Virus record (IMG/VR): IMGVR_UViG_3300037346_000419
Span: 1 to 64,000 of that record
Strand: one strand, 5' to 3'
From: a virus
Length of the DNA: 64,000 nt
Part shown: positions 1 to 44,340 of the stretch, one piece after another
How the letters are laid out: every line of letters begins with the position of its first letter
Numbering within the stretch: the stretch's first letter is position 1
The notes under the pieces: generated by a model
Told to the model about the DNA's origin: nothing
The model's database searches: none
What the model saw: the letters and a program-made list of their open reading frames with translations, nothing else
Translations under genes and position numbers: made by a program

Positions 1-3000
1 TTAAAAGATATAGAACCAGTTTATGCTCCTTACAGTAATGAACAAATACAAGCTTTTATTGATAGTAAGATACCTAATAGTAAAGTTAAAGAAGTTGTGT
101 TTCATGATACAGATGTAAAATTTGATAAATTTGAATCTAAAAGAGGAATATATTTTAATTTAAGTACAGATTATGGATTTTCCAATGCTATATATAAAAT
201 TCCAGCAATAATAAATTTAATTAATCCTATTATAGAAGATATGGATAGTTATGGTGGCGAAAATACTAATTTAAAATTTCCAGACAATGATGGTGTTATA
301 GGTACTGACCCTACCAAAAAGTTTTATGGAGAATATATTGTAAAAAATCCTTCCCAAATCACCATTCTAAACACTCCAGAAACAATAAAAGAATTTAAAA
401 AGTTTGTTGGTAAGCAAAGTAATCTAACTCTAGAACAATCTAAAAACATAGATGATTTAAAATCTATAGAAAAAAAGCAACCTCAAGTAAATGTCCAAGA
501 TGTATTAGGTGCTAGACCTTTAAATAAAAATATAGTTGTAACTGACAAACAAAAACAAAATACTGTAGCTTTTGTAAAAGAGTTACAAAAAGATTTAGGT
601 TTTAAACCTGAACTAAAAGATGTAATCACTCATTTAATAAAAACAGCAGGATTAGAAAAAACAGAAGATATGTATAATATGATTGTTGCAAAAATTGCAA
701 CAACTGGTATTGATGTGTCTGATAGTGAATCTGTTTACTCTGCTTTCTTTGGTGTTACTGAAGAGTTTATGAATGACACAGATAACTTTTTTACAGAAGA
801 AGTTATTAAAGAAGATAATAAAAAACAAGAAACTGCTTTACAAAAAAGACCTGTAACTTTACCTAATGATGTAGATTTTAATCCTGGAGAAGATAGAAGA
901 TTAATGGATAGTAGTTTAAGATTAGCTTTTAACAAACAAGATGCTGTTAGAATTTCTGATACACAGTGGGAAGTTAAAAGAAACTTAAAAGATTCAAATG
1001 AAGACCATTATGTAAAAAATGATTTTATATTAGATTCTGAATTTTTACATAGCATAGAAGAAGAATCTAAACAAAATCCTGAAGTTTTAAGAGCTGTTCA
1101 ATATGATGATACTGATGGCCCATTTAAAAGAGTTAGAGAAAATCAAACTTCAGTAAATTTAGAAATCAATTCAAGTGGAGAAGTTAAGAAAATTTCTATA
1201 CCTGTAAATAAAGGAGAAACTATTGTAACTTGGGGTCAAGCTAAAGAAGCTGCTAAAAAAGTTTTAACAGAACAAGAATATACTGCTTGGTTTAATCAAT
1301 ATGTACCTGTAGCTATAGTTTATCAAGGTAAAAAATCCACTTCTCTTGTAAAGATTAGTATGATGCATGATAAGCATTACTTTTCTGAAGAAGCAAACAA
1401 CTTAAATGAATCAGACCCAGCTTTATTAGAACAAGTAAGGATGGCAGCTATTATTGAAATTTCTGAATTTAGAAATAGATTAGCTGTTAATAAGAATTTA
1501 AATGTTAGATTATCTGCAAGAGAATTTGGACAAATTCATAAAAATCCAAGTACTGTTTCAGTTAATGAAGCTAATCCTCAAAGTCAATTAGCTGTTTTAA
1601 AAGATGTTGTAGGAGATAAATTAATATTTGAAACTTCAGATAAAGTTGAATTTGATAGTAGTAGTATTTTAAATTTAAAGCCAGGCATCTATACTAAAGT
1701 TAATGCTAAAGGAGAAGTAGTTCCTAGAAAAGGTGTTGTAGTTCATATAAATGAAATTATGGTAGATGAAAATGGTAATAAAAAGTATATGGCTTTTATT
1801 ACTTCTACTAATAATCCTTCTAATAATGAGAACTTACCAGAGCAGTTACATGACCATTTAAGTCATGCTGTGGTAGCATCTATCATATTAAACAATAAAA
1901 ACAACGTAGAGCTTCTGAAAAGCTTAGAAGAAAAATACAATTTGACTTTAACTCAAGCTCAAGAAATAGGTAAACAAATTCAAGCTGATAGTAATGTCAA
2001 TATTGAAGTGAATATTGGAGCTTATCTTGGTAAATTTATAAATTTAAGTACAAGTATAGCTGATTTAAGTGAAAACAATTTAAAGAAAGATGGCCAAAAG
2101 TATAAAATAGGTAGAGGTTTTATAATGGATGCTGGGCAAGGCAAATTTCAATTCCAAATTTATGGAGCAGAAAAAACTTCAGATTCTAAAATGGCTTTTA
2201 CTTTAGGAGGAGTAAGTCAATTCCCTACTACAACTTTAAAATACCTAGAAAGCTTTTTAGATAAAGAGACAGGAGCTTTAAGTAAAAACACATTCAATTA
2301 TAATTTAAAAGATGCAGCATCTCAAAAACCTATGAAATTAGTGGGTAAAGATGGTACTTTTAATAATCAAAAATCTGAAAGTTATTCTTCTATAATGAAG
2401 AATTTCTATAAAACAAGAATATTATCACATGAAATAACTACTATTGATGGTAATAAAAAATGGATAACTGATGTTCAACCAATTTTAAAACCTGAAATAA
2501 TAAATGCAAATAATGAAAAAGTAAATTTAAAAATATCTGAAAAAGAAATTACACAAGATGTTCTTGAAAATAATACAGATTTAGAAGTTGTTTACAAAGA
2601 GATGCTTGAACAAGGTATGTCTGAAAAAGCTGCTTTAGAACTTATTGAAACTTTGAAAGCTACAAATGAAAATTATGTTTCAAACAATAGTAATAAATTA
2701 GGGAGTAGATTACAAGTTACAGAAAAATCTAAAGGTGTATTAAAAGATTACAATACAAATAAAATTGAAGGTTTATCAGAGTTACAAGAAAAAGAAATTG
2801 TAGATTTCATTAAACATAACATTCCTGTTGCTATTGAAGATATTAATAATATTACTGCTAAAGAATTAAGAGATAGAATAGTAGAAAAGATTAATAGTAT
2901 AATTAAAGAAGAGATTGAGAAAAAAGAAAGTCAAATAAAAATATTAGAAACTCTACCCTCTGCAACTGTATTCTTAGAACAACAAAATGCAGTCTCAGAG

Positions 3001-6000
3001 AAATTAAAAGCTGTAGATAGTCAAATAGATAAAATGGCAAATTCTGTATTAGAAGAGTTTGGGGCCATATTTAATTTAGACTTAGCACAGGATATTGCAG
3101 AAAATCAAGAAAGCTTTTCAAAAAGCTCTTTGGAAAATGATTTAGTTTTATCTTTTAGTAAAGCTTTACTATTTTCTTTTTATGGTTTTCAGAAAAAAAC
3201 AAATTTTGGAACAACTGTGAAAAACAGTTTTGGTTTACCCACATATCATACTGCTAATGAAGTTAAAACACAACTTTTAGATAAGACAAGTGATATTCCA
3301 AATTCTTGGCCAGCTTTAATGGAAACTTTAAATAATAGCTATCAAATGGCTTATTTTGGACAAGCTAATAATAAGAACATAACAGAAAGAATACATTTGT
3401 ATAAAGACTTAATGGATAAGTTAGAAGCTTTTCCTCAAAATTTAAAGAATGAGATTCTTAGTAAGATGGTTACTAATAAAGTAAGTCTTATAAAAATATT
3501 ATTGAGTCCTGGAAAACAACTCCAAACTGATAGAAAACTGGAAACTTTTTCAAATGGAGAACCTAAATATGCAAGTTATAGTTCTACAATCATTGATGAA
3601 AATTCAAAAAGAGCTGATATAAAACTAAAAGAAAAAATAAAAAAGAATTTTTATGAAGTTTTTGGTGTATTAGATAAAGGACAAATTTCTTTAAATCAAG
3701 AGTACATGACTAATATTATTAGTCAATTAGATACTATCATTAAAAGTCAAGATACAAATCCTGATACTATAATTGATTTATTACATAAAATAGGTTTTAG
3801 TGATATAGAAAAGAACTCTATAAAGTATCTGTTAAACTTACAAGGAATACAAGTAAAGAATAAAACTATAAACATTTTTAGTGATACAAGTGGTTTATTA
3901 GGATTGCTTAGAAAAGAAATGCAGAAAACTTTAGAAGCATCAAAAACAGAAGGTTTCAGTTTAGATAAATCAAATAATCCTTATGAAGAAATAAACAATG
4001 TATTGAAATTTTTAGTAAGTATTGAAATCAATCTTAATAGAAACCTTTTAGGTAGTAGTATATATGTAGGAGACAAAACAGTTTCTACAACTATGCCAAC
4101 TTCTGAATTTTTTGATACTAATAAAAGATTAGCTAATCCAGAAGAAGTTGAAAAATTATTATCTTTACCTTTTCAATCAAGAAACTTCATATTAAAAGCT
4201 TTACTAACTGATGAAGTCTTTAGAGAAAACTTTAATAAGTTATCTTTCCCTTCTTTAGAAGCTTTAGCTGTACACAAAAAAGATTCTTTTGGTGACACTT
4301 CTTATGATAAAATTTCACCTACTGATTCTTTATTAGTTGCTTTAAACTTATATAGTAATACTAGATTTGAAGAATTACAAAATAGTAATTTAAGTGAAGA
4401 TTTTCCTAGTTTAGTATTTAGAATAGGAATGATGCCAAGTTTAACAATAGCTGATAAAGGTAGGACTTTATATCAAACTATACCTCTATTAAACTTTACT
4501 CAAAAAGAAGCTAATTTTGAAAATGATACTTTATCTTTATCTGAAGATGTTTTATCTTTCATGTCTCAACAAACTTTTGAAGCTGAGTTAGCTAATATTT
4601 TAGAAATACAAAAAAACAAAACTAATTACAAAAACTATAATGAAGCATCTCAAATGTTTTACTCTATTAATGATTTCAACATTATTAGTATTGAAATAAA
4701 TGGAAAAAATACAAACATACATGAGATATTACAAAATTTAACAGATGGTTATTTAAGTGAAGATATAAAAGAACAATTAATTGCAAAAGCAAAAGAAAAA
4801 ATTAATAATTATGTTGCTCATGAAACAGATACAAAAATAAAAAAAGATAGTTTTAATGTTGTAAATGGAGAAGTAGTTGAAGCTAAAATATACAACTCAG
4901 AGTCTGATAAACATTTAAGTAATATAAATACAAATTATGTTTCCAGTAAAGTTGGAGAAACTAACTATGATAAGTTAAGAGTTGTTATGGCAGAACACGC
5001 TGTTAATAATTTATTAAATCATTTTTCTACTACTCAGATATATTTAGGTAACTCTGCTTTTTATTCTAAAGTAAAAGTATCAAAAGATATTAAAAAACTT
5101 AATGATATAAGGTACTGGAAAAAGAATATGGAAAAAACAGCAGCTCTTATACAAAAAAGAACTGCAAAACTTATTGCTCCAGGAAATAAAATAGCTGACT
5201 CTGATAACATCAATAGTCAATACTCTACTGAGTTTACTCATATAGCAATAGAAGATGTAGAAAGTATGTCTTCTTTTATAAAAGAGTTAATTGAAAATCA
5301 ATATGGAGTATTAACTACAGAACAAAACTTAGCTTTAGAAGAAATTTCTAGATTAAGAGAAATACTAAATAGTACAGATAACAAAGAAACTATAAAATCT
5401 GTATTAGAGAAAATAAGTAATATAAAAGAAGAACACTTTAGTGAAGTTGCAGATTACTTTAATATAACAGGAACTGATGCTCAAGGTTATGTAACTTGGA
5501 AAGGTTATTTAGAAATGCTTGTAAGACAAAATTTAATTACTGAACAAGAAAGTGAAGATTACACAAAAAAGATAGAAGAAGGAGAATTAAGTGAAAAAGC
5601 TTTAGATAAATTAATGAAACTTAATATGCAGCCTGTTAAACCTGTATATAGTGCTAGTATAATTCAAGGTAATCAATTAGTACCTGTATATATCAAAATG
5701 TCTGAGTTTCCATTGTTTCCTCAATTAACTGCTGGTCTTAAAATTGACAAGATTAGAAAAGTGATGGAAACTATACAAGATGAAAAAAGTAATTCAAAAT
5801 TACATCCTGTAAGAGCTTCTTATCAATCTGCAAATAAAATTGGTTCTGTTGATACTCAATTAACAACAAAAGAATTATATGAATTTGATGGAAATTTAAA
5901 GAATTTAAAGAGTTTAGAAAGTAGTCTAAGTGTTTTACCTATGTCTGGTTACAGAATACAACAAGCTACTCCTAGTAAAGAAGATAAAGCATTTAAAAAA

Positions 6001-9000
6001 GGTAAAGATTCTTATATTACTATGGGGTCACAATTTTTTAAAGTTCTTTTAGGAAACTTTGTAAATAAAATTACAGATAACATATTTCCAAATGTATTTA
6101 GTACTGAGGTATTAGAACTATCAGGAGTAGAAGTAAAAGAAAATCTATCAGGTGAAGACTTAGATAAAATATATTTTAAAATGTATAATATGTTTTCTGA
6201 CTTACTTTCTTTACAATTAGAAACTGAATTAGGTTTAACTGATGTATCTTTTAATGATATGTCTATAGGAGAACAAAATGAAGCTATACAAAAAATAAGT
6301 AAGATATTAACAAAAGAAATAAATGAAAGAAATTATCCAAAGTACTTAAAAAATTCTATAGCTTTAATTGAAGAAAACAATAGAGCTTTTATGGAAGGTA
6401 CATTAATGTTTGATAATAACAGACATAAATTTGAATCTTTGTTACAATCTGTAATAGCAAATAAAATTATTAGTCATTCATTACCTGGAAATGCTCATAT
6501 CTCAGCTTCTTCTGAAGGCTTTGAAGCTATTAAGGATATGGATAGTTTAGATGAAGTAACTAAATCTAAAATAATTTGGGTTACTGAAATTGATGGAGAA
6601 TTAAAAGGAACTTTTGTAAAAGATAATAATGGTAAAGACCAAATTCACACTTCACAAGTTTTACTTAAAGCTCATTGGAAATATACAGATGAAAATGGAG
6701 TACTCAAATATGTAGATTTAACAGATGAAAAATATTATACTTTAAATAAAGAGACAGGTAGAAAAATGTTAAATTTAGATATGATTGATAAGGAATTGTT
6801 GGCTATGTTCTCTTTTAGAATACCAACATCTTCTCACCAATCAGGAGCTTTATTAGAAGTAGTAGGATTTTTACCTTCTGATTGTCAAGATTTACTTATA
6901 GTTCCTAAAGAACACACAGTTCAATTAGGAGAAGATTATGATGTGGATAAAAGAAACATTTACAAATTAAATTATTATGTAGATAATGAAGGTAATATTA
7001 AAAAATTAACAAAAGAATACAAAGATGAAGTTTTAAATTCTGAAGAATTATTAACTTGGAAAGAAAAACATGACATATTGTATAGTGAATTAGAAGGATA
7101 TTTAAATGAAGTTAGATTAGGAAAAGATTCTGAAGATTTTAAATCTTATGTTAAAAGTATTAATCACAATATAAAAGAAATGATTTTAACAAAAACTTTT
7201 ATACTATATGATATTTTTAAAAATAAAAAAGATAATAACTCTTTAGAAGAATTTATAGATTCTGTATTTTCAGATAAAATTTTACAAAAAGAATTAGCAG
7301 ACACAAATTCTTTAATTAAAGATTATAAAAATGAACAAGAAGGTGTTAATGAAATTAAAAATTTAATAAGAGATTTGTACACAGCTTTTAATTATGAAAG
7401 AAGTAGAATAGAAGGTGTATCTGAAAAATTTAAAAAGAATTTAGAGGAGAAATTTCAAATCAAACTTTTAGAAAATGCCTTGATTGATTTATATACTTCT
7501 GTTTATTCTACAACGAATTTAGATGTACAAAGAAAAATATTTAAGCCTTTAACTACTGAAGTAGTTGATACTACTGCAAACTTGATTTTTGATAAAGTTT
7601 CTAAAAATAATAATAATGAAAACTTTAGTATGTTTTCAGAGAGTTATCAAAGAGAGTTATTAAAAAATGGAGCTGATGGTCAAATAGCTATTGGAGAGTC
7701 TTCTTTAGCAGTTGTATTTGAAGCCCAACTTCAAAGAAATGAAAACACAATTAAATTAACTGATTTAGAATACAATCAAGAAGGTGTTTTAGTAGATGTA
7801 CCATTTGCAGAAGTAATTGGAACACTTCAAAATAGTAATGATATTGGAAAACATTTAAAAACTATAGATGGTAAAAGAAATGTTAGTGATATTCATGGAG
7901 AAAATCAAAATAACAACACTGATGCAGTAAATAAAGGAAACATGAGTAAGAGAAATGAAAATACTGTTACTCTTAGGGTGTATAACTTTATGGCTCATTT
8001 ACGTTTTGATTTAACACCAGATAGAATTAACACAGGAATAGAAGTAGTTTATGATAAACAAGATGATAATGTAAGCATAGGTAAAGAAGTTAAAGTTACT
8101 TATAATAAAAACTCTGTTAATGCGATTATTTCTAGTCAAAATGAAGATGGTACTTATAATGCTATTATAAATGAACAATTAAGTGTTCCTTCTTTGATGA
8201 TAAGTCAACCAGTTATAAAAGATTATGTTAGATTGATGACTAGTTATAATTCTATAACTGCTAAATATTCTGCTGAAAAACAACAACAAATAATAACTGA
8301 TTTATCTAAAATATATGGTTTTAAAATTGTTAGAAAAGAAGATGGAACAATAGATACTGCTAAGTTTGTTGATGCCTTAACTTATAATGAAGAATCTACA
8401 AATTTAACAGGTAGTCATATGTGGGACACATTAGATAAAAACCAAGCTTTAAAATTCCCTAATTCTCAAGCTACAATTTTACAAAAATTTATTAGAATTG
8501 AAAATAAAGCTTTAGAAATGGCTAGAGTTAGAAAATTGATTAACTTTAGTTCTTCTAAGATGGGTATATCTTATTTTGAAGTATTAGATAAGATAAAAGA
8601 ATTAACTAGATTAGGAAGAAATCATTTATCTCAAATTGAAAATAAAAATGAAATAACAAATCATTCTAAGTTAATTGGAGAAGTAAGTAAAGAACAATTG
8701 CCAGGTTACAAAAAAATAGGCGAATTATATTGGAAACCTACAACTATTGAAGGTACAATGTTAATCAATGCATTATTTGCAACAGAAAAATTATTACCTG
8801 CTTTCTTTCCTTATGAATCTGGAACAATATTTACTATCATAAGTCAAATTACAAATAATGAACAATTACAAGAACCAAAATTAAACTTAAAAGATAATTA
8901 TAAAATTATGACTGAGTTTGTAAATTTTATAAATTCTGATATTGGTGTATTTGAAAATGATATTGAAAATGAAAGAGAAAGATTAATGTATGAAAATAAA

Positions 9001-11442
9001 TCTACAGGTAATGTTCCATTAGGAAGAATTATAAAAGATTTAAAAGCTAATAATCATCCTATTGTATCTACAGATTTCTTTAAAGATTTAGAAATTGAGT
9101 ATGATGTAACTACAGGTATTACAACTATAAAAAGTCCTTCTGTAGAAGAAACCATATTTGACTCTTCAAACAAGTATGATACTTTTTTAAGATTATTTCA
9201 AGATGACACTACAAACTTAGGAGAGTATAATGGTGAAGTATTAACACCTTTCAAGTTAGCTCAAGATTTAGTTTCTTATGCATATTTATCAGATGATAAA
9301 AATGGAGTGTTTGGTTTTAAAAACTTTATACCTGTAGAGTATCTTAAAGAAATAGGAACTACTAAAAAATATAGAGATTTATTAGATAACATAAAAAATC
9401 AATATGATACAGATGAATTAGTTAAAATAGTAGATAATTTTGTTACTCAATATTTTCAACATAATCCAAATAAAGCTTTTGTAATTGAAGCAAAAGAATT
9501 AACAGAATCTACAGAAGATAAAAAAATAATTCCTCAATTTGTATCAGTTAGAAATACTAAAAAAGCAGATGGCTTACATCAATGGGATTTACATAAATAC
9601 AACTACATTGCAAAAAAGTATGAGCAAATTAGTGTGTTAGGAGATTCAAAATCTACAAGAGAATATAACAAAAAAGTGTTTAGTAAAACTTCTTTAATAG
9701 CAAATAACAATGTTAAAAAAGTTACAAGAGAAGTTATAATGTTAAATGGTAATAAGTATATTCAAGTAAATGGTAAAAACACTTTAGTATCAAATATAGA
9801 TAAAAATCTAACTGAAATGGGTATGCAAGAATTTGTTAATTTAGTGAAAACTTCTAAACAAATTTCTGAAGCTAATAGTATTTTATTAGCAGAATACATG
9901 GAATATATTGATAAAGATACAAAAATAGTTTGGGAAGTTCCAAGTGAAAATAGAAATGCTGAGTATAATCATACAACAAATACTATTTCTATGCATCCAT
10001 CTATTTATTCAAATATATTAGCAAGTAATAATAATAATGCTGAAGAAGCTACTCAAACTTTGCATAATATTTTCTTAGAAGAAGTATTACATTCTCTTAC
10101 AGTTGGAAACTTAAAAGAACATATTGAAGTTGATGCTAATAATCAATTTTTAAAATATAAGACTGCTAATCCTCCTATATATGTAACAATGCTTGTAGAT
10201 ATGTTTAATCAAGCTAGAGAAGCTCTTCCTTATGATGAAAACAATGATTATGATACTTACTATTCAAAAAATATATTTGAGTTCATAGCAGGTATGTATA
10301 TAGCTCCTGATTATGTTGAAAAGCTAGAAAAAGCAAATAAAGGCTTCATAGAAAGATTTGCTAGGATGTTGAAAAATATGTTTACTCATTTGTGGAATAA
10401 GTCAGAAAGAGTTTTAGAAAAAAGTTATAAAGATTATTTTCATAGTGCAGTAAAAAGCTTAGTAACAAAAACAGATATGATTTCAGAGATTACACCAGAA
10501 AAAGAGCAAAAAGAAAAACTTAGTGTTTTAGATATAAAAAATGATGATGTAAAAGTTGATGAAGATATAAAAAGAAAAACTTTAATTCAACAAACTGAAC
10601 AACCTAAAAACATAGAAAATATTTATCCACAATTGGGAAATAAAACAGAGTCTGGTAATGTAATTCTTAAATCTGTATATCAACAAGAAGGTGTAACTTA
10701 TGCTAAATCTATTGGTGGTGTGTTTAGTATGAGAGTTAATAATTCTGAAAAACACTTCGGTAATCCTTTTAGTCCTGTACCTGCTGAAATAGCTAAAGGT
10801 CTAATAGCTGTTAAATCTACTAAAGAGGCAGTTGAGAAGTATATTGATTGGGTTTTAGATAAAGGCGGAAATAATTTAACTAAAGTTCAAATTACAACAA
10901 TAGCTAAAAATTTAATAGATAATAATTCTATAAAAGAAGTACTGTATACATTTAAAAACAGAATTGAATATAATGGAAAGCTAACTGGTTATTACTCTTC
11001 TTTAAAAAGTACTAAAGGTAATATTCCTAACTATTTATCAGATAATATTTATTTAACAAAACAAGATATACTTGATATAGAAAATGAATTAATAAATATA
11101 GGCGGAGAATCTGTTGTAGATACTGCTGTTAGTGGTTTTGATAATACCCAAGAACTAGACGATGATGCACAATATGGTAAATTGGGTGCTTTAGAAGAAC
11201 ATTATAAAAGAGCAGATTGGATTAGAGAACAACTTAAATCAGGAGCTTTAAAAGGTAAATCTATTGTTTATTATAAAGAGCTTCAAGAACCTTCTCACGC
11301 AACTGCTTTAGACTATTTAATTAATAAGTATGATTGGAATAAAGAAGCACAAAACAACTCTCAAAGTGAAAAAAACACTTTATTAACCAAAGAAATCACT
11401 CAAGAAGATATTGATAACTTACCAGAGACAGACTGTAAATAA
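1..11442 (+). CDS. Giant virion RNA polymerase-like polyprotein, 5' partial
   Basis: The frame is open from base 1, so the real start is left of the window; 3,813 codons are visible. Two double-psi-barrel signatures of single-chain crAss-like phage RNA polymerases are seen: SANKIG (Lys codon 1946, base 5836) and the metal-binding DYDVD (codons 2312-2316, base 6934), preceded by FRIPTSSHQSG. A TDAQGY...KPVY stretch before the first barrel also fits the family. Codons 1-75 resemble phage ADP-ribosyltransferase domains (FHDTDVKFDKF then RGIYF). Near codon 3360 EEVLHSLT looks like a zincin helix lacking the first His. The last 230 codons look like DUF4326 (HFGNPF at 3585, PSHATALDYL near 3765). 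Family members are packaged in the virion and transcribe early genes after injection (established for phi14:2). The length and added domains are unusual; the outer domains are inferred. Confidence 0.85.
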   Translation, partial: LKDIEPVYAPYSNEQIQAFIDSKIPNSKVKEVVFHDTDVKFDKFESKRGIYFNLSTDYGFSNAIYKIPAIINLINPIIEDMDSYGGENTNLKFPDNDGVIGTDPTKKFYGEYIVKNPSQITILNTPETIKEFKKFVGKQSNLTLEQSKNIDDLKSIEKKQPQVNVQDVLGARPLNKNIVVTDKQKQNTVAFVKELQKDLGFKPELKDVITHLIKTAGLEKTEDMYNMIVAKIATTGIDVSDSESVYSAFFGVTEEFMNDTDNFFTEEVIKEDNKKQETALQKRPVTLPNDVDFNPGEDRRLMDSSLRLAFNKQDAVRISDTQWEVKRNLKDSNEDHYVKNDFILDSEFLHSIEEESKQNPEVLRAVQYDDTDGPFKRVRENQTSVNLEINSSGEVKKISIPVNKGETIVTWGQAKEAAKKVLTEQEYTAWFNQYVPVAIVYQGKKSTSLVKISMMHDKHYFSEEANNLNESDPALLEQVRMAAIIEISEFRNRLAVNKNLNVRLSAREFGQIHKNPSTVSVNEANPQSQLAVLKDVVGDKLIFETSDKVEFDSSSILNLKPGIYTKVNAKGEVVPRKGVVVHINEIMVDENGNKKYMAFITSTNNPSNNENLPEQLHDHLSHAVVASIILNNKNNVELLKSLEEKYNLTLTQAQEIGKQIQADSNVNIEVNIGAYLGKFINLSTSIADLSENNLKKDGQKYKIGRGFIMDAGQGKFQFQIYGAEKTSDSKMAFTLGGVSQFPTTTLKYLESFLDKETGALSKNTFNYNLKDAASQKPMKLVGKDGTFNNQKSESYSSIMKNFYKTRILSHEITTIDGNKKWITDVQPILKPEIINANNEKVNLKISEKEITQDVLENNTDLEVVYKEMLEQGMSEKAALELIETLKATNENYVSNNSNKLGSRLQVTEKSKGVLKDYNTNKIEGLSELQEKEIVDFIKHNIPVAIEDINNITAKELRDRIVEKINSIIKEEIEKKESQIKILETLPSATVFLEQQNAVSEKLKAVDSQIDKMANSVLEEFGAIFNLDLAQDIAENQESFSKSSLENDLVLSFSKALLFSFYGFQKKTNFGTTVKNSFGLPTYHTANEVKTQLLDKTSDIPNSWPALMETLNNSYQMAYFGQANNKNITERIHLYKDLMDKLEAFPQNLKNEILSKMVTNKVSLIKILLSPGKQLQTDRKLETFSNGEPKYASYSSTIIDENSKRADIKLKEKIKKNFYEVFGVLDKGQISLNQEYMTNIISQLDTIIKSQDTNPDTIIDLLHKIGFSDIEKNSIKYLLNLQGIQVKNKTINIFSDTSGLLGLLRKEMQKTLEASKTEGFSLDKSNNPYEEINNVLKFLVSIEINLNRNLLGSSIYVGDKTVSTTMPTSEFFDTNKRLANPEEVEKLLSLPFQSRNFILKALLTDEVFRENFNKLSFPSLEALAVHKKDSFGDTSYDKISPTDSLLVALNLYSNTRFEELQNSNLSEDFPSLVFRIGMMPSLTIADKGRTLYQTIPLLNFTQKEANFENDTLSLSEDVLSFMSQQTFEAELANILEIQKNKTNYKNYNEASQMFYSINDFNIISIEINGKNTNIHEILQNLTDGYLSEDIKEQLIAKAKEKINNYVAHETDTKIKKDSFNVVNGEVVEAKIYNSESDKHLSNINTNYVSSKVGETNYDKLRVVMAEHAVNNLLNHFSTTQIYLGNSAFYSKVKVSKDIKKLNDIRYWKKNMEKTAALIQKRTAKLIAPGNKIADSDNINSQYSTEFTHIAIEDVESMSSFIKELIENQYGVLTTEQNLALEEISRLREILNSTDNKETIKSVLEKISNIKEEHFSEVADYFNITGTDAQGYVTWKGYLEMLVRQNLITEQESEDYTKKIEEGELSEKALDKLMKLNMQPVKPVYSASIIQGNQLVPVYIKMSEFPLFPQLTAGLKIDKIRKVMETIQDEKSNSKLHPVRASYQSANKIGSVDTQLTTKELYEFDGNLKNLKSLESSLSVLPMSGYRIQQATPSKEDKAFKKGKDSYITMGSQFFKVLLGNFVNKITDNIFPNVFSTEVLELSGVEVKENLSGEDLDKIYFKMYNMFSDLLSLQLETELGLTDVSFNDMSIGEQNEAIQKISKILTKEINERNYPKYLKNSIALIEENNRAFMEGTLMFDNNRHKFESLLQSVIANKIISHSLPGNAHISASSEGFEAIKDMDSLDEVTKSKIIWVTEIDGELKGTFVKDNNGKDQIHTSQVLLKAHWKYTDENGVLKYVDLTDEKYYTLNKETGRKMLNLDMIDKELLAMFSFRIPTSSHQSGALLEVVGFLPSDCQDLLIVPKEHTVQLGEDYDVDKRNIYKLNYYVDNEGNIKKLTKEYKDEVLNSEELLTWKEKHDILYSELEGYLNEVRLGKDSEDFKSYVKSINHNIKEMILTKTFILYDIFKNKKDNNSLEEFIDSVFSDKILQKELADTNSLIKDYKNEQEGVNEIKNLIRDLYTAFNYERSRIEGVSEKFKKNLEEKFQIKLLENALIDLYTSVYSTTNLDVQRKIFKPLTTEVVDTTANLIFDKVSKNNNNENFSMFSESYQRELLKNGADGQIAIGESSLAVVFEAQLQRNENTIKLTDLEYNQEGVLVDVPFAEVIGTLQNSNDIGKHLKTIDGKRNVSDIHGENQNNNTDAVNKGNMSKRNENTVTLRVYNFMAHLRFDLTPDRINTGIEVVYDKQDDNVSIGKEVKVTYNKNSVNAIISSQNEDGTYNAIINEQLSVPSLMISQPVIKDYVRLMTSYNSITAKYSAEKQQQIITDLSKIYGFKIVRKEDGTIDTAKFVDALTYNEESTNLTGSHMWDTLDKNQALKFPNSQATILQKFIRIENKALEMARVRKLINFSSSKMGISYFEVLDKIKELTRLGRNHLSQIENKNEITNHSKLIGEVSKEQLPGYKKIGELYWKPTTIEGTMLINALFATEKLLPAFFPYESGTIFTIISQITNNEQLQEPKLNLKDNYKIMTEFVNFINSDIGVFENDIENERERLMYENKSTGNVPLGRIIKDLKANNHPIVSTDFFKDLEIEYDVTTGITTIKSPSVEETIFDSSNKYDTFLRLFQDDTTNLGEYNGEVLTPFKLAQDLVSYAYLSDDKNGVFGFKNFIPVEYLKEIGTTKKYRDLLDNIKNQYDTDELVKIVDNFVTQYFQHNPNKAFVIEAKELTESTEDKKIIPQFVSVRNTKKADGLHQWDLHKYNYIAKKYEQISVLGDSKSTREYNKKVFSKTSLIANNNVKKVTREVIMLNGNKYIQVNGKNTLVSNIDKNLTEMGMQEFVNLVKTSKQISEANSILLAEYMEYIDKDTKIVWEVPSENRNAEYNHTTNTISMHPSIYSNILASNNNNAEEATQTLHNIFLEEVLHSLTVGNLKEHIEVDANNQFLKYKTANPPIYVTMLVDMFNQAREALPYDENNDYDTYYSKNIFEFIAGMYIAPDYVEKLEKANKGFIERFARMLKNMFTHLWNKSERVLEKSYKDYFHSAVKSLVTKTDMISEITPEKEQKEKLSVLDIKNDDVKVDEDIKRKTLIQQTEQPKNIENIYPQLGNKTESGNVILKSVYQQEGVTYAKSIGGVFSMRVNNSEKHFGNPFSPVPAEIAKGLIAVKSTKEAVEKYIDWVLDKGGNNLTKVQITTIAKNLIDNNSIKEVLYTFKNRIEYNGKLTGYYSSLKSTKGNIPNYLSDNIYLTKQDILDIENELINIGGESVVDTAVSGFDNTQELDDDAQYGKLGALEEHYKRADWIREQLKSGALKGKSIVYYKELQEPSHATALDYLINKYDWNKEAQNNSQSEKNTLLTKEITQEDIDNLPETDCK
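5405..5533 (+). repeat. Donor copy of a 129-bp exact duplication
   Basis: This segment of the RNA polymerase gene is identical, base for base, to the reverse complement of 22900-23028. It encodes a stretch that includes TDAQGYVTWKGYLEMLVRQN, which looks native to crAss-like RNA polymerases, so this is taken to be the source copy. Confidence 0.95.
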
Positions 11443-19970: not shown

Positions 19971-21997
19971 TTACATATTTAAAAAATACAATTCATGTTT
20001 TGCTCTAGTTCTTGCAACATACTTTAAGTTTTGCTCTTGTTGTAGTTGCTCTTTACTTTTAGCAAATTTTGAAGGTATTAAATTCTCATTTAGTATATAA
20101 ACTACATCAGATTCCAAACCTTTTGATTTATGAATTGTACATAGCATTATACCATTTTCTTTTTCTTCAAATAGAGATTTTAATTTCTCTAATAAAACAC
20201 TAACTAAATCATAGTCTCCACAAAAATGCTTATATAATAAGGTAAAATTATTAAGATTCTCTTTAAAAACATAAAATTTAATTTTTCCTTCTTCAGAATA
20301 ATCTTTTTCTAATTCTTCTGTTCTATAAGTCATTTCAATAAAAGCTTGAGTAACTGTGTTTGTGGAATAAGCTTTTAAAAATCTAATTAAAGAATTTAAA
20401 ATGTCTTCTCCTTTTAAATATACATTTTTATCTTCAGCTAACAACTGAAAATAAAGCTCTATTAAAGGATTTGTATTCCTGCAAATTACCATTGCTCCAT
20501 TTTGTATCAATTTATAGTCAGTTATAGTCTTTACAATACCTTCTGAAGAATTAAAAGGTGTCATTACATCATAGACTTCATTTGCTTTCTTTATAATTGA
20601 GTCATCGCATCTGTAACAAATATCTAAAGGTAATTGTTTTACATTTGGTTTAGATAAAAATAAATCAAAAGAAGAGGTTGAAGCCCCAGAAAAACCATAA
20701 ATAGCTTGATTTTTATCTCCAACACAAATAAATCTTTTAACTGATTGTTCAATTAACTTATCTACAATTTTATGTTGACAAATATTCAAATCCTGACATT
20801 CCGTTTTTTTGTATAGTTTTAAAACATGATAAAGATTAATTATTATCATTATACTATACCTTATACTTTCATATAAGACTAGACTATATCTTAAAAATTT
20901 CTAATTTTACATTTTTAATATTTAGATTTTTTATTGTATGAGAATTTATCCAATTTCTTTTGTAAGTATTCTCCCTTTTAGAATCATATATATGCTGAGA
21001 TAATCTTGCTTTTAAACTTGTGCAAGTTACCCCTACATACCTTACTTCTAATGTTTCTGGATTTTTTAAAACATATATTAAAAACTCTCTTTGTTTAATA
21101 TTTTTTATTCTCTACATGTTAAATCTTGTGTTATGCAAAAACAGTAATTTTTCTCCCCGTTTCCAAATAAAATAATCAATTTTAAATGTACGTATTTCTA
21201 CTAGTCGTTGAACCTTACCCATTTTAAAAGGTCTTGGCTGCTGATTGCCTATTTGACATCTCAATTATTTTTAACATTCACACTTATCTTTTCAGATTAT
21301 GTTGTAGTTAATTGAGCTTTAAGGTATTCCAGCAATTAAAGGAGTTTTAAGTGAACTAAATTTAATCCACCATTAGATAATGAGGATATATTGGAATTTG
21401 AAGGCTTTTTACAACTGGTAAATAAATCATATCATTAAAATCTATTAAAACTAAGTTTGATTCATAACTAGCATTTCTTAATTCTAAAAATCTTTGCCAT
21501 AAAACTTTTAAATCAGGTGTGATAACTAAACTTTTATCCATAGTTATAAAACAATCTCTAATAGATTCTACATCATCAATTAAAAATAATCTAGATATAT
21601 CATTCATATCCATTAAATCATAACTCATTTTAAGTTTATCTTTCCAAACTAGCTTTTTAAATATTCTTTTATTTTGAAATTGTAATTTTTTAATTAAACT
21701 AAAATTTTTACCATTATCTATTTTTATATTCTTATAACTATTTCTTATTGCACTTAAACCTAAACTATGAATTGTCATAGCTTTTCCTTGAGTTAAATTT
21801 TTACTTTCTATTTTATTTTGAATTTCTTCTTTGATTGATTTATTAAAAGCTAAAAAAAGAGTTTTTTCTTGACAATGTTCTAATAACAGTAACAAAGTGG
21901 TAGTTTTACTACCACCTGCTACAGCATTTATTAAAATATTACAATCTTCATTATTCCAAACATCTAAAATGTTTTGTTGTTTTTCACTTAGAATCAT
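19971..21997 (-). CDS. SF1 (UvrD/Rep-like) DNA helicase, split by a group I intron
   Basis: Exon 1 is 21997-21365 and exon 2 is 20801-19971; joined they give 487 residues. Exon 1 has motif I AVAGGSKTTTLL (a Ser replaces the usual Gly before the Lys) and the TIHSLG motif. It stops at YLMVD, and exon 2 opens with ECQDLN, so splicing rebuilds the Walker B motif VDECQD. Exon 2 has GDKNQAIYGFSGA (motif III), ICYRCDDSI (motif IV), TIHKSKGLESDVVY (motif V) and ARTRAKHELY (motif VI). It probably unwinds DNA in replication or recombination. Unspliced RNA gives a truncated protein without Walker B. Confidence 0.85.
20802..21364 (-). ncRNA. Group I self-splicing intron in the helicase Walker B motif
   Basis: The 563-nt intron has the four group I core elements in order on the - strand: P-like AATTGCTGGAATACC, Q-like AATCAGCAGCC, R-like GTTCAACGACTA and S-like AAGATATAGTC. 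The 5' exon ends in U (GAT) and the intron ends in G before GAA, as group I chemistry requires. Removal restores VD|ECQD exactly. A GIY-YIG remnant sits between the R and S elements. Confidence 0.92.
20884..21111 (-). pseudogene. Decayed GIY-YIG homing endonuclease inside the intron
   Basis: The 75-codon open stretch reads FLIYVLKNPETLEVRYVGVT, then SLKARLSQHI and YKRNWI, which match the N-terminal catalytic half of GIY-YIG nucleases (IYV, YVG, Arg in LKARL). There is no start: an upstream ATG is followed directly by an in-frame TAG. The C-terminal DNA-binding half is missing. The intron has probably lost autonomous homing. Confidence 0.8.
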
Positions 21998-22113: not shown

Positions 22114-22362
22114 TTATAATATTTCTATAGTTAAATGAACCCATTCATCAATTATTTCAACTTCTGTTTTAACTTTATCTTTAAAAGTAACTATAACTTC
22201 ATGTTGAATCTGTCTAGCATCTTCTATATCAATTCTTGATGCTTTTTCTCTTCCTACATCTCCATTTTCTCTGGTTATATAAGTTATTGTGTTTTCATCT
22301 GCATCATCTAAATATAGATTAGTCATTAATGTATCAATGAACTTTTTTATATCTTCTTTCAT
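22114..22362 (-). CDS. Hypothetical protein (82 aa)
   Basis: Not recognised. An acidic small protein with predicted helix at the N-terminus (MKEDIKKFIDTLMTNLY) and strands after it. It overlaps the upstream secreted-protein gene by 4 bases and lies directly before the helicase, so it is probably cotranscribed with it. Confidence 0.55.
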   Translation of the reverse strand: MKEDIKKFIDTLMTNLYLDDADENTITYITRENGDVGREKASRIDIEDARQIQHEVIVTFKDKVKTEVEIIDEWVHLTIEIL

Positions 22363-22598
22363 GGTCTTTTTTTAAGTGCTAAAGCAAATCCTCTTTTATA
22401 CCCATCTTTATAGGTATCTTCATCTAAAACAATCATTGGACACATTGGAACAATTCCTAAAAAAGTACAATTATATTTATCAAAACACCAACCTTCAGTA
22501 TAACCTTTTTTAAATCCTTCACAATAAGTTCCTGTTGTGTTATAAGCGTTTATATTTAACATATAAACGCTTAAACATATTAATATTAATTTTCGCAT
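22359..22598 (-). CDS. Small secreted or periplasmic protein (79 aa)
   Basis: The N-terminus MRKLILICLSVYMLNINA has a basic end, a hydrophobic core and an Ala at the likely cleavage site, so it looks like a signal peptide. The mature part has four cysteines (EGFKKGYTEGWCFDKYNC and later), suited to disulfides outside the cytoplasm. Repeated aromatic/glycine pairs (GFKKGY, GYKRGF) suggest an internal repeat. Exported phage proteins of this kind often alter the infected cell's envelope; that is inference. Confidence 0.6.
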   Translation of the reverse strand: MRKLILICLSVYMLNINAYNTTGTYCEGFKKGYTEGWCFDKYNCTFLGIVPMCPMIVLDEDTYKDGYKRGFALALKKRP

Positions 22599-23530
22599 AA
22601 TTTTTTTATTTTAGCATATATTTCAGTCCAAGTTGGTAAACCCATAATACACTTATCATCAATATAAACATCTGCTGAAATTTTTCTACAATCTGCTCCA
22701 AACTTTTGAATAAGATGTGGCATATTACAATTTATATAATCATATTGTATGTCATTTTTATCTAAAAAAGCTATTGCAGCTCGTATTGTTGAAAATCTTT
22801 TCATATCATCTTTATAATTTTGAGTATTACAAGCTTTTACTGAAAGTATATCACCATTTAATGAAGAAATCCAATAATAATAATCTTCCTGATAAATTGA
22901 ATTTTGTCTTACAAGCATTTCTAAATAACCTTTCCAAGTTACATAACCTTGAGCATCAGTTCCTGTTATATTAAAGTAATCTGCAACTTCACTAAAGTGT
23001 TCTTCTTTTATATTACTTATTTTCTCTATAGCTTTTCCATCATATGTTCTAAATAAAAATTTATCTAATAACTTAATAGAATGACCATCATTATAAAACA
23101 TCATATGCTTTTGATTTTCAGCTTTACCAATATAAAAATTTCTTATATAATCACAATCCTTGATGATTTCACCAACAGTAAATACTACACCATCTGACAA
23201 TCTTTTTATAGAGTGAATATGATGGGAAAAATTTGAATTTAAATAATATTCTGCATTATATAGACCATCTCCTTTTCCATAAAAGCTCATTAATCCACTC
23301 ACAGGATTAAGTATATAATGACCATTATATCCATTTATTTCTATTATCTCATAATCTTTTTCAACAACTTTTTCCCAAAATTCTGGATTGTTTTCTACTA
23401 AATGAGAAGAAATTTCTGAAAACGTACCACTTCCATTAAAATTGTAAATATTTCTACCTTCTAAGAAATTTACTACAGTATTTAATTTAACACTTCCTGG
23501 ATATTTTTTAATTAATTTATATTTTTTCAT
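22586..23530 (-). CDS. Hypothetical protein with HAD-like C-terminus and an inserted polymerase-derived segment
   Basis: Residues 1-165 are not recognised. The C-terminus (YDYINCNMP, then KISADVYIDDKCIMGLPTW) resembles the end of small HAD-type hydrolases, but no N-terminal DxD nucleophile is seen, so activity is doubtful. In the middle a phage motif of the type TxDGKxIyxxDxYYW is broken: TYDGKAI is followed by 44 foreign residues and then YQEDYYYW. The foreign stretch is encoded by a 129-bp exact copy of the RNA polymerase gene plus a few bases, and stays in frame. Removing it restores a continuous motif. It overlaps both neighbours by about 13 bases. Confidence 0.7.
   Translation of the reverse strand: MKKYKLIKKYPGSVKLNTVVNFLEGRNIYNFNGSGTFSEISSHLVENNPEFWEKVVEKDYEIIEINGYNGHYILNPVSGLMSFYGKGDGLYNAEYYLNSNFSHHIHSIKRLSDGVVFTVGEIIKDCDYIRNFYIGKAENQKHMMFYNDGHSIKLLDKFLFRTYDGKAIEKISNIKEEHFSEVADYFNITGTDAQGYVTWKGYLEMLVRQNSIYQEDYYYWISSLNGDILSVKACNTQNYKDDMKRFSTIRAAIAFLDKNDIQYDYINCNMPHLIQKFGADCRKISADVYIDDKCIMGLPTWTEIYAKIKKLCEN
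22900..23028 (-). repeat. Recipient copy of the 129-bp exact duplication
   Basis: The - strand here is identical to + strand 5405-5533 with no mismatch, while sequences on both sides differ completely. The reading frame of the protein is the same in both copies. The insertion lies between codons for KAI and YQED of the 314-residue protein. Confidence 0.95.
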
Positions 23531-23708
23531 ATTTTATTTTTTCTAATTTAAATTCATATTTATCTCCAACTTTAGTTTCAATTATACCTGTCTTAAAGTC
23601 TATATTTTTTATTTCTTTATATATTTCACTATGAGGTATTTTTAATTTTTCACAAACTGCTTTTCTAAACATACTTCCTGCAATTCCATTTAATTTATAT
23701 GCGTTCAT
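23517..23708 (-). CDS. Small hypothetical protein (63 aa)
   Basis: Not recognised. Starts MNAYKLNGIAGSMFRKAVCE and has a lysine-rich second half. Overlaps the kinase gene upstream (4 bases) and the 314-residue gene downstream (14 bases), so it belongs to the same transcript. Confidence 0.5.
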   Translation of the reverse strand: MNAYKLNGIAGSMFRKAVCEKLKIPHSEIYKEIKNIDFKTGIIETKVGDKYEFKLEKIKYEKI

Positions 23709-33137: not shown

Positions 33138-34211
33138 TTAATATGTTAGTAATTTTTCAATTATAAAATTGTAGTCATTATCAATTATAGGTTCAAATAG
33201 TTCCATTGGACTTCTAACTGTATTAAAACCATCATTTTGAGTTTCTAATATATATTTTGATTCACTATTTTCTTTAATAACTTTGGCATAAAGTACAGTT
33301 TCATATTTACCTTCAAGTTGCATTTTAGTTGCCATATTACCTAAAGTTTTCAATCTATATCTCATGTCATTTCCATGTTTATACTCTTCAAGATGTGCTG
33401 TTAAAATAGCATATCTCTCTTCTTCAAACATATTTTTTGATAGTCCCATTTTTATGTGATTTGTAATATCATCATAAGTTTTAGGTATTACATGATAGGG
33501 TATTATAGGGTTATTTTTTTTACCATACTCTTCTTTTCCTCCTACCCAAACAGGATTCTTATTATCTGCATTAAACCATATATTAGTTTTACTAGGTAGT
33601 GTTCTCATACCAGTACTTTTTCCTGTCTTTATATTCTTTTAAGTTCGTTACTTCTTAAAATGTTCTCTAATGAACTACTTGTATTCTCACACAAGAATAG
33701 ACTATATCTTTATCCTATAAGGATAATCCCCTTTTCCACCCACTTGGGTGTACAGCTTCCAACAGCTTAGTCGTTGAACCTTACCCTTATTATTTTCATA
33801 ACTTAGAGTCTTGGCTGCTGATTGTCACATAATAAGAAATTTTCAAACATTCATAGTGTAATTTCTTCACTATTGTAGTTTTCTTATCTTCGAGATATTC
33901 CAGCAATTAAAGGATTTCATTATATAGATTACTCTATATAAGGGCTATATTTTAAATATTTATTGTATTTTCTATCTAAATAAATTGTAGCATTATCAAA
34001 TATACAATAATTAATTAACATAACCTGGACTACCCACAATTAGAATTGTTTCAAAACCTAAAGATTGTAAATCAGATTGTAATTGCCATATTGACATACC
34101 ATAGTCTTTCCACTTATCGTGTCCTGGCTTTTTTAATGAAGTCATGTATTCTTCATTTTGAATACCTGTTAAGGTATCAATACAGACTGTTCTTATTTTT
34201 GTTTCATTCAT
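33138..34211 (-). CDS. Sak4-like RecA-fold ATPase, intron-split and with displaced Walker B
   Basis: Exon 1 is 34211-34023 and exon 2 is 33626-33138, giving 225 residues. Splicing joins ETILIVGSPG to TGKSTGMRTLP, a perfect Walker A. Sak4 proteins aid single-strand annealing recombination. The usual order is Walker A, Walker B (VxIDxLT), then LTAHxEE. Here the Walker B unit (IRTVCIDTLTG to LQSLGF, residues 6-53) stands before Walker A. Its expected place, between SKNM and FEEERYAILTAHLEE (spliced residue 130), lacks it. The C-terminus (KYETVLYAKV, RSPMELFE) is typical. Starts 14 bases after the DnaB-like gene. Confidence 0.78.
33627..34022 (-). ncRNA. Group I self-splicing intron in the Sak4-like Walker A motif
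   Basis: The 396-nt intron has P-like AATTGCTGGAATATC, Q-like AATCAGCAGCC, R-like GTTCAACGACTA and S-like AAGATATAGTC on the - strand, nearly the same core as the helicase intron. The 5' exon ends in U (GGT) and the intron ends in G before ACA GGA AAA. Removal rebuilds GSPG|TGKST. No open reading frame is seen in it. Confidence 0.92.
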
Positions 34212-44210: not shown

Positions 44211-44340
44211 TAGTGAGGACAGGACTCGAACCTGCACTGCTGTTTTTACCCCAAGGTCAAGCCATTTCTGACACGGCAACCTTTATCGAAATTATTTTGG
44301 GTAGGTTGATAATTGCGTTTACCAGTTCCGCCACCTCACT
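44211..44340 (-). tRNA. Abnormal tRNA-like gene with expanded middle (130 nt)
   Basis: The acceptor AGTGAGG/CCTCACT with A73, the D arm GCGGAACTGGTAAACGC and the T arm GCAGG-TTCGAGT-CCTGT are all intact and of leucine type. Between D and T arms are 79 nt where about 35 are expected. No 5-bp/7-nt anticodon arm with U33 is found; candidate stems are TTATC/GATAA (20-nt loop) and AAGGT/ACCTT. It may be a tRNA with an insertion, an intron, or a decayed gene. Anticodon not assigned. Confidence 0.6.

Follow-up and report, generated by a model that had tools for sequence, protein, structure and literature searches.

How a fragment of one phage gene comes to lie, in frame and almost unaltered, inside an unrelated gene of the same genome is the question raised by a short inverted repeat in a metagenomic virus contig, the 81,326-base IMG/VR record IMGVR_UViG_3300037346_000419, whose first 64,000 nucleotides (the window) were analysed. 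A first-pass annotation, made from the letters alone, had reported that 129 bp of an RNA polymerase gene recur exactly within a small gene on the other strand. Comparison of the two strands confirmed this base for base: positions 22900-23028 (-) equal positions 5405-5533 (+), and the exact match stops at both ends. Self-comparison using blastn gave a common tract of 134 bp with 99.25% identity and one T/C mismatch, located at 5405-5538 (+) and 22895-23028 (-). The tract has only these two copies in the whole 81,326-base record, in DNA of 27% GC; they are about 17 kb apart on opposite strands, and the copy sits inverted. Since the record contains no other inverted exact match of at least 22 bp, a chance origin of the 129-bp identity was excluded.

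Donor and recipient genes

The plus-strand copy is located in an open reading frame at 97-11442 (+). Since no stop codon interrupts this frame back to base 1 of the contig, the N-terminus of the product is probably missing off the left end. A profile built from 23 relatives over the stretch surrounding the segment was used in hmmsearch and matched PDB 6vr4, a DNA-dependent RNA polymerase and the one solved structure found (E 1.2e-35, profile positions 51-577), which is gp66 of the crAss-like phage phi14:2 (PMC10770324). Both the TDAQ stretch, which lies in the copied segment, and the DxDxD motif align with 6vr4, the DYDVD catalytic motif identified by motif search (residues 2280-2284; 6934-6948 (+)) being placed opposite DFDID. 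The copied segment is about 470 residues N-terminal of this motif. The product also matched phrog_16227 (giant virion structural proteins, E 9e-79), is homologous to gp32 of Flavobacterium phage FpV4, and was linked by tblastn to a phi14:2 structural protein and a crAss 'RNAP catalytic subunit'; no phage match to the gene was found at the DNA level. On the strength of these profile, PHROG and homologue matches, the donor is a crAss-like virion RNA polymerase gene. The virion-carried polymerase of crAss-like phages serves early transcription (PMC7886860).

An aligned counterpart of the segment is present in FpV4 and in each of the 28 polymerase loci fetched, and 25 relative records contain it one time apiece. 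It is therefore native to the polymerase, in which TDAQ is among the most conserved stretches. The TDAQGY region had been annotated as native to crAss-like polymerases; this holds for the segment, but TDAQGY as such is peculiar to this phage, which has it in both copies where the aligned relatives have TDAQEY. Over 5164-7026 (+) the polymerase departs from 17 of 100 conserved columns, more than any of 21 relatives, and G replaces the otherwise invariant E in TDAQ-E-Y.

The minus-strand copy is located in a 314-aa open reading frame at 22586-23530 (-), whose ends are overlapped by neighbouring ORFs at 22359-22598 and 23517-23708. Residues 1-165 match phrog_11079 (E 1.1e-25), and the gene is syntenic with FpV4 gp42, each adjoining a DNA helicase gene. 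Membership in the phrog_11079/FpV4 gp42 family extends over the first ~240 residues only. The C-terminus of the family, NKPCLSxND, is absent, and in its place residues 249-310 (22601-22786 (-)) resemble the C-terminal half of a BT0820-family HAD-type phosphatase, as indicated by a match to NF046079 (E 2.5e-11, profile positions 51-112 of 137) and by 62% identity to phi14:2 gp071 over 50 aa. The catalytic N-terminal half of the phosphatase was not found in the record. No near-identical source of the phosphatase half was seen, and its fusion is therefore probably older than the polymerase insertion. With the insert at residues 169-212, read in the frame of the donor, the recipient is by these matches a mosaic drawn from three sources or more. 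Three homologues (L051, L064 and L050) carry extra copies of an F-T-x-DG...GD module in or beside the same region, indicating that the family tolerates in-frame additions there.

Comparison with homologues and direction of copying

The annotation had noted that a motif of the small gene reads through once the insert is removed, and had taken the fragment to have moved from the polymerase to the small gene, very recently unless the copies had been kept identical. In order to compare the recipient with its family, 63 relatives were fetched, the closest having 53% identity, over the N-terminus; a close relative with the empty site was not found. Neither the polymerase segment nor TDAQ is present in any of the 63, and an old domain common to both genes, which had been named as the finding that would speak against recent copying, was therefore rejected. 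Only one homologue aligned across the site when the insert was kept, compared with 29 when the 44 residues were removed. In a 34-row alignment, 33 of 33 homologues lacked precisely the 44 inserted residues, their gap falling between ...DGxxI and xEGD.... When every possible 44-residue deletion was scanned, the global optimum fell at the insertion site, where the summed bits rose from 3930 to 4167, and among deletions of different length 44 was sharply the best. Because all aligned homologues gap exactly at the 44 inserted columns, the insertion is lineage-specific and seamless, with flanks that are contiguous to the codon. The opposite course, with the recipient as donor, was rejected since the segment is found in all aligned polymerases, and copying from the polymerase to the small gene is supported. 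The homologues thus bear out the annotated direction and the restored motif, and support a recent event.

Neither a 35-mer of the segment nor the joined codons of the empty site were found in other viral contigs, a search that possibly does not include the records nearest to that of the window, or in bacterial genome contigs. The insert consists of polymerase coding sequence alone; it has no self-splicing signals or endonuclease, as an intron, intein or mobile element would, and the Rfam search with whole-window fast filters placed no intron there.

Near-identity would equally be expected of an old insertion that had been homogenised by ongoing gene conversion between the inverted copies. Such a history requires the insert in related phages, yet it is absent from all homologues found; conversion tracts would also have to span exactly the repeat every time, and recombination between inverted copies would be expected to flip the 17 kb often and break both genes. 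The phage-specific changes in the donor affect 3 of 10 conserved columns inside the segment and 14 of 90 outside it. The segment is thus not clearly enriched in them, and nothing points to sequence exchange between the two copies. Back-conversion into the polymerase was rejected on the same ground. We consider gene conversion an extremely unlikely explanation.

Junctions, reading frame and mechanism

The empty site was modelled from distant homologues and, with the I codon taken as ATT, is inferred to read ...GCTA TT TATCAGG.... Relative to this site, 134 nt (the inserted copy, 22895-23028 (-)) stand in place of 2 nt (TT), a net insertion of 132 nt corresponding to 22895-23026 (-) and recipient codons 169-212. 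The gain of 44 codons in frame agrees with the annotation; its "four extra bases" do not, the net 132 nt being made up of the 129 identical bases and 3 more. The junctions overlap the inferred empty site by 1 nt on one side and by about 3 nt (ATT) on the other, as a polymerase that changes template and then comes back would leave them, but overlaps of 1 to 3 nt in DNA of 27% GC are weak evidence for any particular mechanism. The one T-to-C difference lies 5 nt inside the second (ATT) junction.

A rival reading is an assembly or library artefact, in which the contig joins the small gene to polymerase sequence although no such molecule exists. The contig comes from a metagenome, 129 is near k=127, and related contigs have end overlaps of 127, 99 and 55 bp, which are a mark of k-mer assemblers. 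An artefact would nevertheless need two independent false junctions in one gene without the loss of any recipient base, and would have to preserve both orientation and frame; moreover, the similarity runs 4 nt beyond one mismatch, and both genes are intact on either side, with homologues and synteny with FpV4. The annotation had argued from the intact flanks against a simple chimera; these flanks close up into a conserved motif with codon precision. For that reason an assembly error is unlikely, although it retains some small probability.

As annotated, the insertion is in frame, the insert being read in the donor frame and the 314-aa ORF of the recipient remaining open. Among 132-nt pieces of the polymerase gene, the gene's own frame is always open, the other two forward frames never, and those of the other strand in 0.6 to 9% of cases. 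Random insertions would keep the recipient open in about 6% of cases (~1/5 for frame and strand multiplied by 1/3 for length). Because an ORF-preserving insertion is unlikely a priori, this suggests that the frame has been kept by selection, either on the protein or on translation of the overlapping neighbours.

Selection might also have acted on the inserted peptide itself, which might for instance regulate the virion polymerase or act as its decoy, with identity kept by selection or gene conversion. The segment does hold TDAQ, a highly conserved polymerase stretch, and is in frame. Its 44 residues are, however, a fragment rather than a shown domain, and selection at the protein level alone would let synonymous sites drift, whereas all of them are identical, as recency explains. 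The chimera is repeated in no relative, and the donor changes described above give no sign of copy exchange. No support was found for the decoy offered in the annotation, and a functional chimera appears very unlikely; the accessory protein that received the peptide is variable and modular, and most likely tolerates it as a passenger.

Capture through RNA, in which a polymerase transcript is reverse-copied into the recipient, would account for an insert lying in the sense direction of both genes. The open frame demands the sense direction likewise, and a reverse transcriptase domain was not found in the 81-kb record. Reverse transcription or a DGR was rejected for want of an RT in the record, and RNA capture is scarcely credible here.

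From a near-identical tract with a native donor, an insertion confined to one lineage, an open frame and seamless flanks, we infer a template switch, and consider it highly probable that the fragment arose by recent templated (copy-paste) insertion within one phage genome. A strand growing in the small gene, in the course of replication or end repair, would have jumped to the polymerase gene on the opposite strand, 17 kb away, or alternatively to a second genome copy; after some 134 nt had been copied from there, it would have returned to almost the same position in the recipient. The two junction overlaps, of 1 nt and of about 3 nt (ATT), may have aided the switch, and the T-to-C change is close by. 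The outcome would be a gain of exactly 44 codons in frame, with the donor neither changed nor lost. The record encodes a DNA polymerase, a Sak4-like protein and an exonuclease, and these products of the phage, the Sak4-like one as an annealing protein, could supply the intermediates. Among the three causes that the annotation had offered, template switching is the best fit, and the overlaps at the junctions are compatible with it.

Relation to known systems and other features of the window

Related genomes had been proposed as a place to look for the 129 bp in other genes. Self-comparison of 17 relative records (1.5 Mb) revealed no further case of a gene fragment duplicated nearly exactly within a different, distant gene; what it detected were repeats at record ends, repeats in tandem or side by side, and paralogues only. 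The insertion is thus a single case and not a demonstrated process. That crAss-like phages build chimeric genes by copying their own fragments into tolerant accessory genes, of which this recipient, with a polymerase fragment and half a phosphatase within 314 residues, would be an instance, is a tentative idea which we regard as rather improbable.

Templated insertions, as in MMBIR, FoSTeS and polymerase-theta end joining, have been described mainly in eukaryotes. The present insertion is like them in being a short tract from the same genome with apparently minimal junction homology and an unchanged donor: the tract is identical to a donor which is retained, and is here inverted. It differs from them in that it occurs in a phage and that the frame of the second gene stays open. 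No phage case of such a templated insertion was found in the literature searched, which was covered in part, so this is weak evidence. In coding genes of S. cerevisiae, template switching between short inverted repeats alters the coding sequence (PMC8604942), and polymerase template switching as a cause of coding change is common to both systems. In yeast, however, one arm of a short imperfect inverted repeat serves as donor for the other and at most 5 neighbouring residues change, whereas here 44 codons came from an unrelated gene 17 kb away. Domain mosaicism in phage proteins, where unrelated proteins have a highly similar fragment in common (PMC10684548), is likewise similar; that work concerns protein modularity across phages, whereas here both genes are in one genome and the copied fragment is smaller than a domain.

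Shared fragments are abundant in phage genes, and donor, recipient and direction are seldom all visible. Here all three are visible, near-perfect identity follows from recency, and the state before insertion can be specified to the exact codon, providing a rare clean snapshot of a chimeric gene made from the virus's own DNA. The case indicates that in a compact phage genome a stretch of a structural gene can be copied into a gene unrelated to it, both remaining open. It is a concrete instance in which to test whether new phage proteins arise by intragenomic fragment capture.

Other features were identified elsewhere in the window. A tRNA-like sequence at 44211-44340 (-) scored 39.7 bits in Rfam, has a long insert after the anticodon region and received no ARAGORN call; it may be either intron-bearing or decayed. 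A group I intron at 33678-33965 (-), adjoining the 3' part of the Sak4-like ssDNA annealing gene, matched the full RF00028 model in a short-region search (80 bits, E 1e-20), and the whole-window fast-filter search did not report it. A GIY-YIG endonuclease was suspected in one intron, and Pfam gave no confirmation. A second, diverged group I intron at 20862-21344 (-) was detected as two RF00028 pieces (43 and 23.6 bits); it has 69% identity to the first over 160 nt, and interrupts the DNA helicase gene precisely at the boundary of PHROG positions 370 and 371.
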